Positions 22,134-28,843 of a stretch of 40,606 nucleotides of DNA are shown here, one piece after another. The stretch lies in IMG/VR virus record IMGVR_UViG_3300003691_000022, positions 1-40,606 of that record; one strand, given 5' to 3'. The notes beneath the pieces are model-generated. The model was not told the DNA's origin and made no database searches. It saw nothing but the letters and a program-made list of their open reading frames with translations. How positions within the stretch are numbered: position 1 is the first letter of the stretch; every line of letters begins with the position of its first letter. A program made the position numbers and the translations under genes. The stretch comes from a virus.

Positions 22134-24536
22134 TTAATTTATTGATAGGTCTATGCCCGGCGCTTTTGCTGTCAAATCGATTCCATATGATTTAACCGTC
22201 AATGTTATAACTATCTTATCACCGACCACAGACAATATAATATTTTCTATTGACTGATTTTGCAATAATTTATCTATCTCAAGAATGTGCGCCTGTGTCA
22301 AGTCAAGGTTGTCAATTGATTGATTTTGTACGATCTTCGATATCTGCAAAAGGATACCAGAAGTCAATATCAAATTATCAGTTGCCTGGTGCTGATCGAT
22401 ACCGGATATGTTTAAGAAACCGTGTTCAATAAGATCCAGGATATCAACGTTTTGGTCTTGAATCATATCAGCAATTGCAAGGACACCGGCAATGGCCAAT
22501 TGGACATTATCTATTGATTGGGGTTGGTCTATGCTGTCAACGCCTAATATATTGTGTTCAATTAAATCCAAGCTATCTGTTGTTTGGGGCTGATCAATTC
22601 CGTTAACACCTAAGACATTATGTTCAATCAAATCCAAATTGCTCATTGACTGCGGCTGGTCAGAATCGTTAATATTCAATAAGCTTGATATCGTTAAGAT
22701 TATATTATCGATGGCCTGCGGTTGGGTTATTGGATCTATTGATAAAACGTTATGCTGAATTAGATTTATGTTATCAATTGCCTGGGGTTGATTAATCTTA
22801 TTCGGCAATAAAGTTGATCCGGCTTGAACAGGTACAGCACCCCTATCGCTTCCGTCATATCCAGACCCTTGTAAATCTACATTAGTCGGTGCCTTGCCTT
22901 CTTTGACATATGATATAAGATTTGAAGGTAATGCAAGAACGTTAAAGTTTGGATCACTTGGTTCATTCATAGCCTTAAGAGCATTTAGACCATCTGTTCT
23001 CTGAAGGTCTTCAGTGACTTCTAATGATCCAAGCACATCGACTGCCCATTTTGCTAAATTTCTACCTTCATCTATAAAGCCAGGGTCAATGTCATTTAGA
23101 TCATTTGCCCCTGGGGTAGCCGCAAAGGCTGCTGCGGTCACATTGTCATAATCCTCTTCTGACAAATTAGAATATGCATTGAAATCACATACCGTTATAT
23201 AGTCATTAACTGCAACATTCGTGCTAAACTCATTAATTTGTTTACCACCTTTTGAAATGTCACTATACCCTAAATTATTTCTACAAGACTGAAGAATTGA
23301 TGCATGACCAAGATACGATTCAGCTATGGCAGGGCAACCATTGTCACCAGAAACATAATAAGTATTATTATCACAAATAACAGTAATGTTAGAATTTCCC
23401 AACAATGAAACAATGTTCCCGGCTGAATCATTGTTAGAATTTCGTAATACAATGTTTCGTTTTGCGGTCACAGTTATTGGAATGGAAGGTGTACCAGGCA
23501 ATATACAATCACCAGTATTGTCAGTTTTGCTATATTCAAAAAGATTACCATCATATTCGCTATCAGCCTCTACGGGTGTGCTTATAAAATGAGGATTGCT
23601 GTTTTGTGTGTTATATAGATAATTATCTTTAACTATTGGCGACCTACTCACCCATACAAGCGCAAGACTCAAAAAATTATTCTCAAAAGATCCCATCCAT
23701 TTTGCAGCATCACTTGACGGTGTATCAACCCTATCAAAGTAATTTTCACTAAATTCAAAACCACCAGGCCAAACCTGTCTATAATCTTGATCAAAAACGT
23801 TGTGAAAAACTTCCTTTGTGCCTGTATTAATTCCACCTAAGAATTCAGTATTCCGTGAACTTGGTGTGTTCTTGAATGTGGTATTTTTTAATGAAAAATT
23901 AGACGCTGAAGGTAACGCATTTGGATGATATAGCCTACCGCAATTATCAAAAATGCAATTTTCAATTTTGTAATTCACACCTACATTTTGAAGTCTGGTC
24001 CCTATAGATTCTAAGGATGAGTTACCAATATTTGTAAAAGTGCAATAATCTATATCAGGCACACCAGAATCCCATAAGCCTTGATTTGGGAAATGCATAT
24101 CACCTAAACCTAATTTTGTGACAGAACATCTATTATTTAATGTGCCATTAAAAACAAGTCTGCATAAATCAGCATGAGCTTTATTTGTACGCCATTCGTA
24201 TGTCAACCCGATCGCAACTTCAAATAACACATGCGCATTCGCACTTAATACATGGTCACCGTCTTCACCCTGTATAGATCCTCTAACAGTTAGCGTGGCT
24301 GCTGGCAATACGATAAATCCACCAGTAGTGTTGCACGATATTACGTCTTCTTCAGGAGTCGGTGAATCGCCAATAATGTGACTGACCAAAAAAGAAACAA
24401 GGTGGCTGGTATCACAGACTATTCTATCACCACCAAGTAAATCAGGGAAATCTACACCAGATACACCGGGTGAGGAATTCCCGAAAGTACCGCCGTCTGT
24501 TGCTGCACCGGATTGGGTTGATATAAATAGTGTCAT
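22134..24536 (-). CDS. Large beta-helix-type protein with 22-residue C-terminal repeats
   Basis: Protein of 800 residues. The first ~550 residues have repeated short Asn-containing turns and strands (NYKIENCIFDN, FSLKNTTFKN, TVICDNNTYYVSG), the look of a right-handed parallel beta-helix as in tailspikes. Residues about 579-775 are nine imperfect 22-residue repeats around QPQ-x-x-DN-x-x-L. The last 25 residues are beta-rich. The gene lies inside the head module after MuF, not beside tail fibres, so it may be a head fibre or capsid decoration that binds polysaccharide. No signal peptide was seen. Confidence 0.6.
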   Translation of the reverse strand: MTLFISTQSGAATDGGTFGNSSPGVSGVDFPDLLGGDRIVCDTSHLVSFLVSHIIGDSPTPEEDVISCNTTGGFIVLPAATLTVRGSIQGEDGDHVLSANAHVLFEVAIGLTYEWRTNKAHADLCRLVFNGTLNNRCSVTKLGLGDMHFPNQGLWDSGVPDIDYCTFTNIGNSSLESIGTRLQNVGVNYKIENCIFDNCGRLYHPNALPSASNFSLKNTTFKNTPSSRNTEFLGGINTGTKEVFHNVFDQDYRQVWPGGFEFSENYFDRVDTPSSDAAKWMGSFENNFLSLALVWVSRSPIVKDNYLYNTQNSNPHFISTPVEADSEYDGNLFEYSKTDNTGDCILPGTPSIPITVTAKRNIVLRNSNNDSAGNIVSLLGNSNITVICDNNTYYVSGDNGCPAIAESYLGHASILQSCRNNLGYSDISKGGKQINEFSTNVAVNDYITVCDFNAYSNLSEEDYDNVTAAAFAATPGANDLNDIDPGFIDEGRNLAKWAVDVLGSLEVTEDLQRTDGLNALKAMNEPSDPNFNVLALPSNLISYVKEGKAPTNVDLQGSGYDGSDRGAVPVQAGSTLLPNKINQPQAIDNINLIQHNVLSIDPITQPQAIDNIILTISSLLNINDSDQPQSMSNLDLIEHNVLGVNGIDQPQTTDSLDLIEHNILGVDSIDQPQSIDNVQLAIAGVLAIADMIQDQNVDILDLIEHGFLNISGIDQHQATDNLILTSGILLQISKIVQNQSIDNLDLTQAHILEIDKLLQNQSIENIILSVVGDKIVITLTVKSYGIDLTAKAPGIDLSIN
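22235..22800 (-). repeat. Nine tandem 66-bp (22-aa) coding repeats
   Basis: The units align as D/T-Q-P/N-Q-x-x-D-N/S-L/I-x-L followed by 11 residues with IEHN and a hydrophobic end; the best pair reads DQPQTTDSLDLIEHNILG and DQPQSMSNLDLIEHNVLG. The period is 22 residues in the units checked. The DNA is diverged between units, so the array is not very recent. Confidence 0.75.
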
Positions 24537-24565: not shown

Positions 24566-25360
24566 TCAATTCTCTTGCCCCTGCAACTCAGGAATCACCG
24601 GAATGGAAACTCACCGTCAATTGAATGCTTCGCCTGGATGACCATCAGGAGGCGGCGCAATCCACATAAATTCAACCCCATTTCTAATAAAATGATCCAT
24701 GTGGCCTGGATTCCCATCAGGATATTCACCCCCAGGAGTTCCAACAACCCTTTCATCCTCTGATGTTTGCCAGATGTAAGACTTAATACCCAAATCTGTT
24801 TGCCTGGCCTTGTTAAGCTGTCCGACTATTTTTTCTGTCTGATCCCGTGCAATAAAATTGGCACGACTTTTTGCCACCTTGAATCTCGTTTCAAGTGACT
24901 GAATCATGGCCTGTTGATCAAAACCCTTTTCAGTAAAGATCTTTTCAAACTGATCAACAATTTGTAAATTCATTTTCTGCGGTATGCTTTTGATGAGAGC
25001 AATATTGTCAAATAAAGCCTGATTCATTAACGGCCTTATATTGAGATCTGACATGAAAGGATTGATATCAACACCAAGGGCAGATTGAAAAGACTTTATC
25101 ATCTGGGCCTTATGGACACGCCGCACATTATCAAGAGCGTTTTGAACCGTTGAGATTCCGAATGATTCACCAGATGTCATGAAAAGGAATTCTTCATTGA
25201 CAGCCCGTTGATATGCTGATTTTATTTTAGGTACTGATGCAAGCCGGGCCTTGGTCCTTGCTAAAAGAGGATCAAGGATATCTCTTTTTATAGCTTTGGA
25301 ATAGGCTTTCTCGTCCTTGACTCTGGCCCTTATTCCTTTTGGGCTCCTTGGCTTTGCGAT
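24566..25360 (-). CDS. MuF/SPP1 gp7-like head morphogenesis protein with two in-frame UGA (probable selenoprotein)
   Basis: The minor head protein lies just after the portal gene. The C-terminal domain has YIWQTSEDERVVG, GHMDHF, then PPPDGHPGEAFN; MuF proteins continue with Cys-Arg-Cys, but here codons 248-250 are TGA CGG TGA. The frame then reads VSIPVIPELQGQEN to a TGA at 24568-24566, giving 264 residues. A small hairpin follows the UGAs. Upstream the frame is open past the first ATG (25180), with a basic 60-residue region and no ATG/GTG/TTG; ATC 25360 sits 7 nt after a perfect AAGGAGG. Without recoding the protein ends at 24617. The MuF call is firm; selenocysteine and the ATC start are inferences. 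Confidence 0.7.
24578..24594 (-). promoter_or_regulatory. Candidate bacterial SECIS hairpin
   Basis: The minus-strand RNA reads CCUG-AGUUG-CAGG (24592-24580), extendable to six pairs by two U-G wobbles. The apical loop begins 28 nt after the first UGA and 22 nt after the second. As I recall, bacterial SECIS models ask for a loop 16-37 nt from the UGA with a G in the first two loop bases; both hold (loop AGUUG). The stem is short, so support is moderate. Confidence 0.45.
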
Positions 25361-26778
25361 GGCCCACCCTCCTTTTTGCTTCTTTCAATCTGGATGTTTG
25401 CAAGCCTGTTGCTAAATTCATCAGCCTTATCAATCAATCCATCAAGATCATCCAGTTTGCCAATGATCGGATCACCATCAAGGATATTCCTTCCCTCGTC
25501 TTCATCAAGAATCCTGGCCGTTACAGCTGGAACAACGATTTGAACTTTCTTCAATGCGATTTCAACAAGGTCCTTTTCAGACAGATCAAGGATTGATGGG
25601 AATTTATAGCAGATCTTTTCTTTTAATCCGGCGTGTTTCTGGATGACAGCATCAATTTTTTGAAGCGGTTCAGGTAAGAGGTTGTTTTGATCGGTCGCAA
25701 CCTTCAGGGCATAATTTCTTTCTTCACCCTTCCCGGTTGAATTGAGCCCTGACATTGATTTTGACATAAAACGTGTGTCTGGTATGTCCGCTGCTGCTGC
25801 AAGCCTTCCAGCGTTTCTATCCATGATTTCAGGCAGATTGCTAAACGATATTTCACGCCGGTCAAAATCGTCTTCAGCATCCATAAAAACAGTTCTATAA
25901 ATAGACCTTAATGCTGTTGTCTGCTCCATGCGCTTCTGAAGGCTTAAGGTATCAGGGTCACTCCCTGAAAGTGCATCCTCAAAGTCTGTGACCTTTTGGA
26001 TTGCAATGCTTGCTTCATTCACCAGATGGGCAACTCCCTTTGATACATTTGAGTCTTGAAATATTTCAACCATCACGGGAACGATAGAAGGAATCCCCCA
26101 ATCAGGATCATATGATTGCCATGAGTTTTCAGTCATGGGCTCAATGCCATCAAACCGGATAACACGGGAATGATGCACAACAAATGAACCGCCTTGTTTC
26201 ATGGTGATATTATAGAATATCGGTTTTCCAAAATTTATGGAATATGGGTTTCTCTCTTTGCTTACAATATTGGCATCAAATCTATCAACGGATAAAATAT
26301 TTGCAAGATCGCCTGGTAACATCCGGTTAATATTCAATGGCATTTCTGGGCTGGAATCTTTTGTCAAAATAATCAAAAGACCGGTCCCATATAATCTGCC
26401 ATTCTTCATTGACTTTGCAAGCTTTGATTTTATCTTGAATGTGGTTTCAACTTCCTGGACAATCTCCATGGATCTGTTTTCCATGTCGCAAAACTCACGC
26501 CATTTCAAAAACATGTCATCAACAGGAATGTTCACAAACTTTGCAGCCGCCCACGATTCAACATAAAGGATTTCATTGATATTTTTTGATTGCAGTCTGG
26601 TAGGTGCGAAAAAGGAAGAATGATTTTTATCAAGGCTTGTTCCGGCTCCGGCCATTGGATTTACCAGGCCACCACGATAACCACCCTGACTGTATGCGGC
26701 ACTTGTATTGTCAGTGGTTCTTTTCTTTTTTCCGCGCCTTTTTCGTTTCATACCAGGGCTTTGAAATCGCTTTGTCAT
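25330..26778 (-). CDS. Portal protein (DUF1073-like)
   Basis: Protein of 482 residues. It starts with a very basic tail (KRKRRGKKKR), then ESWAAAKFVNIPVDDMFLKWREF, GRLYGTGLLIIL, and the C-terminal SGLNSTGKGEERNYALKV, which is diagnostic of DUF1073 portals. It forms the dodecameric DNA gate at one capsid vertex. The 3' end overlaps the proposed start of the MuF gene by 31 bp and contains its ribosome-binding site. It is the first gene of the virion operon after the divergent promoter region. Confidence 0.86.
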   Translation of the reverse strand: MTKRFQSPGMKRKRRGKKKRTTDNTSAAYSQGGYRGGLVNPMAGAGTSLDKNHSSFFAPTRLQSKNINEILYVESWAAAKFVNIPVDDMFLKWREFCDMENRSMEIVQEVETTFKIKSKLAKSMKNGRLYGTGLLIILTKDSSPEMPLNINRMLPGDLANILSVDRFDANIVSKERNPYSINFGKPIFYNITMKQGGSFVVHHSRVIRFDGIEPMTENSWQSYDPDWGIPSIVPVMVEIFQDSNVSKGVAHLVNEASIAIQKVTDFEDALSGSDPDTLSLQKRMEQTTALRSIYRTVFMDAEDDFDRREISFSNLPEIMDRNAGRLAAAADIPDTRFMSKSMSGLNSTGKGEERNYALKVATDQNNLLPEPLQKIDAVIQKHAGLKEKICYKFPSILDLSEKDLVEIALKKVQIVVPAVTARILDEDEGRNILDGDPIIGKLDDLDGLIDKADEFSNRLANIQIERSKKEGGPSQSQGAQKE

Positions 26779-26890: not shown

Positions 26891-26935
26891 TTTTACATGA
26901 TTAAAATAAACACACATAAAACAGGAGCAAACTAC

Positions 26936-27241
26936 ATGATTAAAAAATTAGAAAAACTTATCCAAGATGCTAAAAACGTAAACGATGACCATGACAACTC
27001 TATAGAATTTGAAAGCATGGCATACACTGTGAAACTTAGGCGAAGTTTTGACTCTGCATTTAGGCCCTATATGGAAATATCTTTAGATGGAATTCAATAT
27101 GATAGGATAATGATAGATGACAAAAATAGAGAAAGCGTTGTTAAAATATGGGAGTCATTGAGAACTCTCAGGTTTAGAGAAAAATCAGCCAGAGTTAACG
27201 TGCTTAGAGAAAATGTATGCGATTTCATGAAAAGCTTATAA
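26936..27241 (+). CDS. Accessory-island protein 1, hypothetical
   Basis: Protein of 101 residues from ATG 26936, which has AGGAG upstream; an in-frame ATG at 26897 coincides with the predicted transcription start and is less likely. It shows an N-terminal Lys-rich helix, a beta region (YTVKLRRSFDSAFRPYMEIS), and a basic C-terminal helix (RTLRFREKSARVNVL). No family is recognised. It is the first gene of a promoter-driven island inserted between portal and terminase genes, a place where phages often carry accessory or anti-defence genes. Confidence 0.55.
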   Translation: MIKKLEKLIQDAKNVNDDHDNSIEFESMAYTVKLRRSFDSAFRPYMEISLDGIQYDRIMIDDKNRESVVKIWESLRTLRFREKSARVNVLRENVCDFMKSL

Positions 27242-27248
27242 ACCAAAC

Positions 27249-27262
27249 GCCCCGAAAGGGGC
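27249..27262 (+). other. GC-rich tetraloop hairpin after island gene 1
   Basis: GCCCC-GAAA-GGGGC forms a very stable 5-bp stem with a GNRA loop. No T-run follows, and the next gene's ribosome site is about 10 bases away, so it is probably an mRNA-stability or processing element. Confidence 0.6.
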
Positions 27263-27281
27263 ATAACAAAGGAAAAGTGAT

Positions 27282-27500
27282 ATGGAAAAGCGCCAAAAAA
27301 GTTTCAAGTTCAATGAGATTAACTTTAGATACAACCTTAACAAATCAATGTTTATGAAAATAACAGAGCTTGGAGAAGAACTGCATATTAGAATATTAAA
27401 GTGCACCGGGTGTGACCAGGTAAGTGAAAAAGTGATCATAAAAAAGAATTATACTGGCCTGGTCTATGTGAATAATAATGGCGAAATAGATCTTGTTTAA
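27282..27500 (+). CDS. Accessory-island protein 2, hypothetical
   Basis: Protein of 72 residues with AAAGGA upstream. It is basic at the N-terminus, then has mostly beta structure, with a Cys pair in CTGCDQ at about residues 41-44 that could bind metal with other ligands or be a lone rubredoxin-like knuckle. It ends in short strands (LVYVNNNGEIDLV). No family is recognised. Confidence 0.5.
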   Translation: MEKRQKSFKFNEINFRYNLNKSMFMKITELGEELHIRILKCTGCDQVSEKVIIKKNYTGLVYVNNNGEIDLV

Positions 27501-27544
27501 TCAAAAATTCCTAAGTAAGACAATAAACCTCCCGAAAGGAAACC

Positions 27545-27778
27545 ATGACAGAAGATATCATTTGCACCGTTTGCGGCCATGAAGTGAAAGGCTCCAGCAA
27601 TCAGAAGACCGGTAGACCAAAGCAATATCATGAAGAATGCAGACAGTTAATCAACGCAATTTCTCTTTTGCAAAGCAGGCTTGAAGCATTCAGGGTATTG
27701 AACCCTAAACAAGAACAAAAGAAAATGGTCCGGTCTTCACTTTGGAGCCTGGCAAATTCTATGAATGGAAAGGATTGA
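27545..27778 (+). CDS. Small zinc-finger protein, island paralogue
   Basis: Protein of 77 residues. It starts with C-T-V-C-G-H, then NQKTGRPKQYHEECR: the pattern CxxC...HxxC predicts one zinc site. A helix (ISLLQSRLEAF) and a basic C-terminal helix (SSLWSLANSMN) follow. The protein at 35135 on the opposite strand is about 72% identical over 72 aligned residues. Such fingers often bind nucleic acid; the role is unknown. It is preceded by a good AAAGGA. Confidence 0.6.
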   Translation: MTEDIICTVCGHEVKGSSNQKTGRPKQYHEECRQLINAISLLQSRLEAFRVLNPKQEQKKMVRSSLWSLANSMNGKD

Positions 27779-27783
27779 TAATT

Positions 27784-28092
27784 ATGAATGATTTAATGAA
27801 ACAAGAAACAGGTGTATTTTCTGCTCCAAATAATGTCATAGTAATAAGATGTCCATATAATATCGAAGAATTAGAAGACTATCTTAAAAAATCAATGAAG
27901 CAAGATAGAATATTAAGAATGAGTGTAGGTGGAGATACTGCACCGGATTGGCATCAAACTTTTTTAAAGCATATTACAGACTTAGCATTGAAATACAGAC
28001 CTTGGCAATTCAAGTGGTTAAGTCAAGAATATGGATCAATTGAAATTGTTTGGGTAGAGGTTGAAGAGTGGTTATATAAATATAAAGAATAG
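27784..28092 (+). CDS. Accessory-island protein 4, hypothetical
   Basis: Protein of 102 residues from ATG 27784 (AAAGGA upstream; an upstream in-frame ATG overlaps the previous gene). A middle segment, NNVIVIRCPYNIEELEDYLKK, and a Trp-rich end (WHQTF, RPWQFKWLSQEYGSIEIVWVEVEEW) stand out. A mixed alpha/beta fold is likely. No known family is recognised. Confidence 0.5.
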   Translation: MNDLMKQETGVFSAPNNVIVIRCPYNIEELEDYLKKSMKQDRILRMSVGGDTAPDWHQTFLKHITDLALKYRPWQFKWLSQEYGSIEIVWVEVEEWLYKYKE

Positions 28093-28102
28093 GAGAAGGA
28101 AG

Positions 28103-28303
28103 ATGATTAGAATTGTAAAATTAAGTGGCAAATATTATGGAAAAGTACTTGACGGTTATGATTTTGAAGACAAACTAAATGAGGATGCATCTAATATTGA
28201 AACTTTTATTAATGAGGGCAACCCGGTCATACTTGCAGAAGACCGAGAAGATGCAGCCGAATTATTAAACATTAATACTTCTGATATTGTTCTGGTAGAT
28301 TAA
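28103..28303 (+). CDS. Accessory-island protein 5, small acidic protein
   Basis: Protein of 66 residues, start chosen for GAAGGA upstream. It is acidic, with a short beta hairpin (MIRIVKLSGKYYGKVL) followed by alternating helix and strand and ending in DIVLVD. Small acidic phage proteins are sometimes inhibitors of DNA-binding proteins, but nothing here proves that. No family is recognised. Confidence 0.5.
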   Translation: MIRIVKLSGKYYGKVLDGYDFEDKLNEDASNIETFINEGNPVILAEDREDAAELLNINTSDIVLVD

Positions 28304-28307
28304 AATC

Positions 28308-28529
28308 ATGACACCAAAACATTTAAAAGACATTAGGCAATCATTCGATTTCACACAAAAACAAATGGCTGAAATCCTGGGGATTAAATACGTTCAAAAT
28401 TATCAAGCTTTTGAATCTGGAAAGAATCCAATCCCTAAGTATATCAGCAACTATGCAAATTCATTGACCATGCTGAACATAAACGGATTGCTAAAAAAGC
28501 ATATTGAAATAATAGGCGTTGAACTTTAA
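28308..28529 (+). CDS. XRE-type helix-turn-helix regulator
   Basis: Protein of 73 residues, mostly one HTH_3/XRE domain: DIRQSFDFTQKQMAEILGI with the recognition segment following (YQAFESGKNPIP). It is smaller than a typical CI repressor and has no dimerisation or protease domain, more like Cro. It lies fifth or sixth in the operon driven by the promoter with the ACAGTA dyad, so autoregulation is plausible. The ribosome site is weak. Confidence 0.72.
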   Translation: MTPKHLKDIRQSFDFTQKQMAEILGIKYVQNYQAFESGKNPIPKYISNYANSLTMLNINGLLKKHIEIIGVEL

Positions 28530-28576
28530 TAAACCGTTACTACGGACGAACATAGAACTTAACATTGAGAGGGTTT

Positions 28577-28843
28577 ATGGAAAATTTTACACGAGAACAA
28601 ATAACAAAAGTGATTGAAGACTGTGAGAAAATAGCTGACGATAATCTAAAGCATTGTGCAGCTACAGCAACGTCAGAGGCTCTTGAAAGAATAAGAGAAT
28701 ACTTCAAGCCTCTCAATAATAAGATTGAAACGAGTCAAGATCCGTGCAAGTGTCACAAGTTTTACAAAAATCAGAACAGCTATATTTTCTGCCCAAATTG
28801 TGGGCGCAATCTTTGCCTGCAATCACATGACATTAATACTTAG
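28577..28843 (+). CDS. Zinc-ribbon-containing small protein
   Basis: Protein of 88 residues from ATG 28577 behind GAGAGGG. It has an N-terminal helical domain (TREQITKVIEDCEKIADDN, later ERIREYF), then a Cys/His cluster: CKCHKF and CPNCGRNLC, a probable zinc ribbon. The layout, helical half plus C-terminal zinc cluster, resembles the small Cys-rich proteins at 31286-32396. Its 3' end overlaps the convergent terminase gene by 11 bp. Confidence 0.55.
   Translation: MENFTREQITKVIEDCEKIADDNLKHCAATATSEALERIREYFKPLNNKIETSQDPCKCHKFYKNQNSYIFCPNCGRNLCLQSHDINT

Follow-up and report, generated by a model that had tools for sequence, protein, structure and literature searches.

According to the sequence comparisons presented here, a bacterial virus appears to encode a minor head protein of the MuF type in which both cysteines of an invariant Cys-Arg-Cys (CRC) site are replaced by selenocysteine (Sec, U), the two in-frame UGA codons being recoded by host machinery via a hairpin (probability roughly 0.86). 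The head protein would very probably be made with selenocysteine both in this phage, whose 40,606-nucleotide IMG/VR record (the whole stretch analysed) is referred to as the window, and in its close relatives. At both positions UGA is exchanged with Cys codons among related phages, the coding tail behind the UGAs is conserved, and a hairpin is conserved together with the UGAs. A phage selenoprotein had been proposed in a sequence-only reading of the window, and the comparisons with related phages supported this interpretation.

The gene lies on the minus strand and its frame reads ...PPPDGHPGEAFN UGA CGG UGA VSIPVIPELQGQEN UGA, i.e., the protein continues as ...GHPGEAFN-UGA-CGG-UGA-VSIPVIPELQGQEN-stop (Table 1). 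The sequence-only reading had described both TGAs in this frame, the open tail behind them with its stop, and a read-through product of 264 residues, and all of this was found again. The start codon is ATC at 25360-25358, preceded by AGGAGG, and the terminal stop is TGA at 24568-24566. Membership in the MuF family was indicated by the curated profile TIGR01641 (44.6 bits, cut-off 39.65) in the profile search, by a match to phrog_324 (5e-48) and by gene order, as the gene adjoins the portal gene within the head module and is followed downstream by the genes for head protease, cement and major capsid protein; the match to PF04233 (1.3e-7, 27.6 bits) lay below the cut-off of 29.6 bits. The C-terminal CRC of MuF proteins is present in the Cys-form relatives and reads URU by codon in the window, which is the variant itself and does not speak against MuF homology. 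The virus is of the contractile-tailed type, its structural proteins being E217/Pam3-like. As a separate observation, the MuF gene starts with ATG or GTG in the relatives, and the terminase large subunit gene of the window (about 30222, minus strand) also has no ATG, GTG or TTG start and probably starts with ATT behind AAGGA, which makes two head genes of the window without a start of these three kinds.

Table 1. Features of the MuF gene and its surroundings in the window.
Feature	Position	Strand	Remarks
MuF/SPP1-gp7-type minor head protein gene	24566..25360	-	264 aa with both UGAs read through
UGA codon 1, residue 248, predicted selenocysteine	24617..24619	-	corresponds to first Cys of the homologues' CRC
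UGA codon 2, residue 250, predicted selenocysteine	24611..24613	-	corresponds to second Cys of the homologues' CRC
SECIS-like hairpin UUCCUG-AGUUG-CAGGGG	24578..24594	-	6-bp stem, 5-nt loop
Coding tail VSIPVIPELQGQEN and terminal TGA, 3' of second UGA	24566..24610	-	kept in relatives
Portal protein gene, overlaps MuF start, directly upstream	25330..26778	-	PF06381 8e-65, phrog_146 1e-79

For the identification of close relatives the IMG/VR database was searched with the read-through MuF protein, and the matches aligned past the UGAs. The relatives, which stem from separate metagenomes and are 85-60% identical along the whole length of MuF, showed UGA and Cys swapped at the same two codons. The three codons of the site were UGA-CGU-UGA in L002 (85% identical; URU, as in the window), UGA-CGU-UGC in L003 and L004 (80%; URC), UGU-CGC-UGA in L005 (79%; CRU), UGU-AGA-UGU in L006 (77%; CRC), UGU-CGA-UGC in L007 (69%; CRC) and UGC-CGA-UGC in L155 (61%; CRC). 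At either site, some phages thus have UGA where others have Cys, and the two sites have changed separately. The sequence-only reading had placed the TGAs on the conserved Cys positions, and alignment with the homologues put both exactly on the CRC columns. A sequencing or assembly error at TGC or TGT codons, for which nothing speaks but the rarity of the event, has a practically negligible probability: the same TGAs are carried by independent metagenome assemblies, namely those of the independent phage L002 (85%) and of L003 and L004 (two assemblies that are identical over 10.8 kb), and an error would not pick just these two codons in four lineages. In practice this explanation is refuted by L002-L005.

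Among the more distant MuF homologues that were read through the site, all had CRC except three with a probable intein, and none of the homologues was seen to end at FN, the last two residues before the first UGA. In the three exceptions (L028 near 3480, L080 near 393 and L082 near 3369) the sequence continues as INCLIGETKVF or INCLPGDSYL from the first CRC cysteine, which resembles an intein inserted precisely at this residue. An alignment of 27 MuF proteins, in which UGA was scored as Cys, contained eight invariant columns (G191, W197, D202, H223, G240, C248, R249 and C250), and in 23 of these proteins the CRC cysteines were the sole cysteines. The number of distinct UGA-form sequences was only four, which was counted against the selenocysteine reading. 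Pattern searches of IMG/VR for N-UGA-R and N-Cys-R-UGA returned, beyond the known relatives, chance matches outside MuF genes only.

In a phylogenetic tree built from five structural proteins the UGA forms were interspersed with Cys forms; CRC is carried by L155, L006 and the L007 record, and URC by L003. The clade of L005 (CRU), L002 and the window (both URU) was fully supported, and several other nodes were weak (54-61%). To explain this tree, site 1 must have changed twice or more and site 2 at least once, which gives a minimum of three changes between Cys and UGA. In the four UGA-form genes (approximately 1050 codons) six of six in-frame stops were TGA and all were located in the two Cys columns. 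The chance that three tree-required changes would hit the Cys columns was calculated as (2/263)^3, or approximately 4e-7, in line with the earlier judgement that a chance origin is unlikely.

If the UGAs were real stops, the protein would end at FN (247 aa); if they were leaky, near-cognate tRNAs would produce the tail at a low level in the manner of Q-beta. This explanation, which we consider quite improbable, agrees with the result of the conventional gene caller, which ended the gene at 24617, i.e., at the first internal UGA, and with the intact upstream part of the gene. Against it, the residues that the family conserves most would be lost, two UGAs at a distance of 6 nt would be passed very inefficiently by chance decoding, and a truncated gene predicts no sister phages with Cys at one site and UGA at the other. 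The tail is moreover in frame, and its variable columns were distributed over the three codon positions as 2/2/8 of 12 each (p = 0.005), with 26 synonymous vs. 9 non-synonymous codon differences. Because of this codon-position pattern and the excess of synonymous differences, the tail was considered to evolve as coding sequence, which speaks against real stops.

The use of TGA elsewhere in the genomes was analyzed by comparing all non-overlapping ORFs of the window with the records of L002, L003, L005, L006, L007, and L155. In the window and these six related records TGA faced Cys in no other sense gene, and TGA terminated approximately 30% of the ORFs; in a separate count it ended 2 of the 20 main genes. 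General reassignment of UGA is excluded by these results, and the earlier description of TGA as a normal stop elsewhere in this genome held. A more specific alternative is that a host tRNA, e.g., a tRNA-Cys with UCA anticodon, decodes UGA as cysteine or another amino acid without any selenium. Such UGA-reading tRNAs of the tRNA-Cys type have been described in some bacteria and would lead to the same UGA/Cys exchange. We nevertheless regard this alternative as highly improbable, since a position-independent suppressor would scatter UGA over other Cys codons and is at odds with UGA as a frequent stop that occurs inside no other sense gene; the phage is also without tRNA, and the hairpin is kept solely in the UGA forms.

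This hairpin (5' arm 24594-24589, loop 24588-24584, 3' arm 24583-24578) was present as the sequence-only reading had stated, with an AGUUG loop that begins 22 nt behind UGA 2 and 28 nt behind UGA 1, and the same distances apply to all four UGA forms. A 6-bp stem with the 5-nt loop AGUU(G/A) was found in 4/4 UGA forms, and a hairpin of at least 5 bp was absent in 3/3 Cys forms (L007 had no hairpin, L006 none in the same register and L155 a 4-bp remnant or precursor). When codons were resampled synonymously, a hairpin of 6 bp with a 5-nt loop arose in approximately 1% of draws per sequence. The two outer pairs vary with pairing kept (U-G,U-G in the window; U-A,U-A in L002; C-G,U-A in L003 and L005), and part of this covariation could be protein-driven, as a Gly/Glu change is involved.

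Bacterial SECIS elements are characterized by a loop of 3-9 nt with G in the first two positions (mostly G[G/U]), an upper stem of 4-16 bp, a UGA-to-loop distance of 16-37 nt and a minimum free energy of at most -7.5 kcal/mol (PMC13188914, a 2026 review). The window hairpin, the loop of which has G at position 2 followed by U, agreed with three of the four constraints of this model (loop, stem/G and spacing), so that the fit to bacterial SECIS elements suggested earlier stood in these respects and was borderline in energy. Including the flanks, the minimum free energy was -7.9 kcal/mol in the window, -8.7 in L003 and -11.9 in L005, and L002 missed the limit with -6.3; the window hairpin by itself had -5.1 kcal/mol and was on its own the weakest of the four. 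Its pairing probability was approximately 0.2 when the UGA region was free, with upstream pairing competing. The fold of the whole 70-nt stretch was no better than that of shuffled sequences (z = -0.06), and for this reason the weight of the hairpin lies in the comparison with relatives and not in its energy. When the site and three phage records were scanned against Rfam, no known RNA was returned and nothing reached the gathering threshold, Rfam not being expected to contain bacterial SECIS as one family.

We infer that the UGAs are recoded, that selenium is present in the protein and that the machinery of the host is used. The infected host would provide SelA, SelB, SelD and tRNA-Sec, and SelB with Sec-tRNA would bind the hairpin and recode both UGAs. 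The full-length product would contain Sec-Arg-Sec within its C-terminal domain, and failed recoding would result in a 247-residue product without the C/U-x-C/U site. Under this mechanism two UGAs 6 nt apart depend on one hairpin, which was counted against the selenocysteine reading. MuF proteins (SPP1 gp7) are required in few copies per virion, and slow or inefficient insertion of selenocysteine would therefore be tolerable. In the predicted structure of the protein (mean pLDDT 92.8) the N-terminal part consists of long helices, and D202, H223 and the C/U pair are located in a small strand domain that follows it. Because Asp, His and two Cys are invariant, a metal site is suggested, and the C/U-x-C/U pair together with Asp202 and His223 resembles a metal (Zn-like) or redox site within the C-terminal domain. 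Selenocysteine as a ligand would lead to tighter binding of soft metals and to easier oxidation. The PDB was searched by sequence and by fold and gave no relative.

Neither tRNA nor Rfam RNA was found in the phage or in two relatives with near-complete genomes, and hence no phage tRNA-Sec; the machinery of the host would therefore be needed. A search of GTDB contigs with the MuF alignment gave no match, and a peptide pattern search of GTDB genomes gave no prophage of the UGA clade. A search of GTDB with the major capsid protein returned three MAG contigs, all of the CRC form. The nearest relative in a cellular bin was L155, a 38-kb phage contig of the CRC form with 72% identity in the capsid protein. 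Its bin is a Candidatus Sabulitectum MAG, in which both SelB (309 bits) and tRNA-Sec (71.5 bits) were found. In the phylum of this MAG, SelB was above the cut-off in 35 of 42 genomes and tRNA-Sec matches of more than 68 bits were present in 36 of 42. The MAG is weak evidence and a proxy only, as a binned phage contig says little about the host, and the hosts of the UGA-form phages may be other than this MAG group. A spacer-like search with the DNA of the window and L155 in the same phylum gave weak short matches only, none of them convincing. A related head module of the CRC form (L156; 53% in the major capsid protein) was observed in a 176-kb contig of an alphaproteobacterial MAG without SelB or tRNA-Sec match above the cut-off, and is probably a prophage.

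Compared with bacterial selenoproteins (SelB and bSECIS, E. coli FdhF type), the phage gene shares the in-frame UGA, Cys homologues at the same position and a hairpin just downstream within the coding sequence, with loop G at position 2 followed by U and a spacing of 16-37 nt (PMC13188914). Known families are, however, mostly redox, hydrogenase, formate dehydrogenase, and metal-handling cellular proteins, none of those found being a virion protein, whereas here two predicted selenocysteines in U-x-U share a single hairpin and the decoding genes are not phage-borne. With MuF/SPP1 gp7 (PF04233, TIGR01641, phrog_324) it shares the family, the position adjoining the portal gene and the D202/H223/CRC site; the other members found have Cys-Arg-Cys, and the predicted forms here are Sec-Arg-Sec, Sec-Arg-Cys or Cys-Arg-Sec. 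The 2026 review of prokaryotic selenoproteins names no phage, virus or capsid protein in its text (PMC13188914). In the open-access literature viral selenoproteins were found in animal viruses only, no virus of bacteria with a reported selenoprotein was found, and one report of a phage tRNA-Sec was the only earlier link between phages and selenocysteine.

The viral selenoproteins are the glutathione peroxidases of molluscum contagiosum and fowlpox viruses (PMC8310308), which likewise depend on the Sec machinery of the host. Those are host-derived enzymes of eukaryotic viruses, whereas here selenocysteine would have arisen from Cys within the viral lineage, in a structural gene of a bacterial virus. 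The tRNA-Sec gene was reported in Basilisk-like Bacillus phages (PMC6145125), i.e., a tRNA gene without reported phage selenoprotein, in contrast to the candidate selenoprotein without phage tRNA described here. The decoding mechanism would be the known bacterial one. As far as the open-access literature shows, what is new is the protein family, the setting in a virus and the U-x-U site.

The MuF protein is likely to be a first in two respects, as a selenoprotein encoded by a bacterial virus and as a structural virion protein with selenocysteine, both cysteines of an otherwise invariant metal- or redox-like site being swapped and virion assembly tied to the selenium status and Sec machinery of the host; two forms of MuF, truncated and full length, may occur in a selenium-dependent ratio. 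If so, the host range of these phages would be limited to Sec-decoding bacteria, a new place to seek selenoproteins would be available, since gene callers cut them, and the role of the invariant MuF cysteine pair would be testable by natural Sec/Cys swaps, made in both orders.

Two further regions of the window were recorded. An ORF of 800 residues directly downstream of MuF (22134-24536, minus strand) had no Pfam or PHROGs match, and the C-terminal third alone of its protein was conserved in L002 and L003. Between the minus-strand portal and terminase genes, a 2-kb group of small ORFs was located on the plus strand (26897-28843), one of which is HTH-like (28308-28529) and another contains two Cys pairs (28565-28843).
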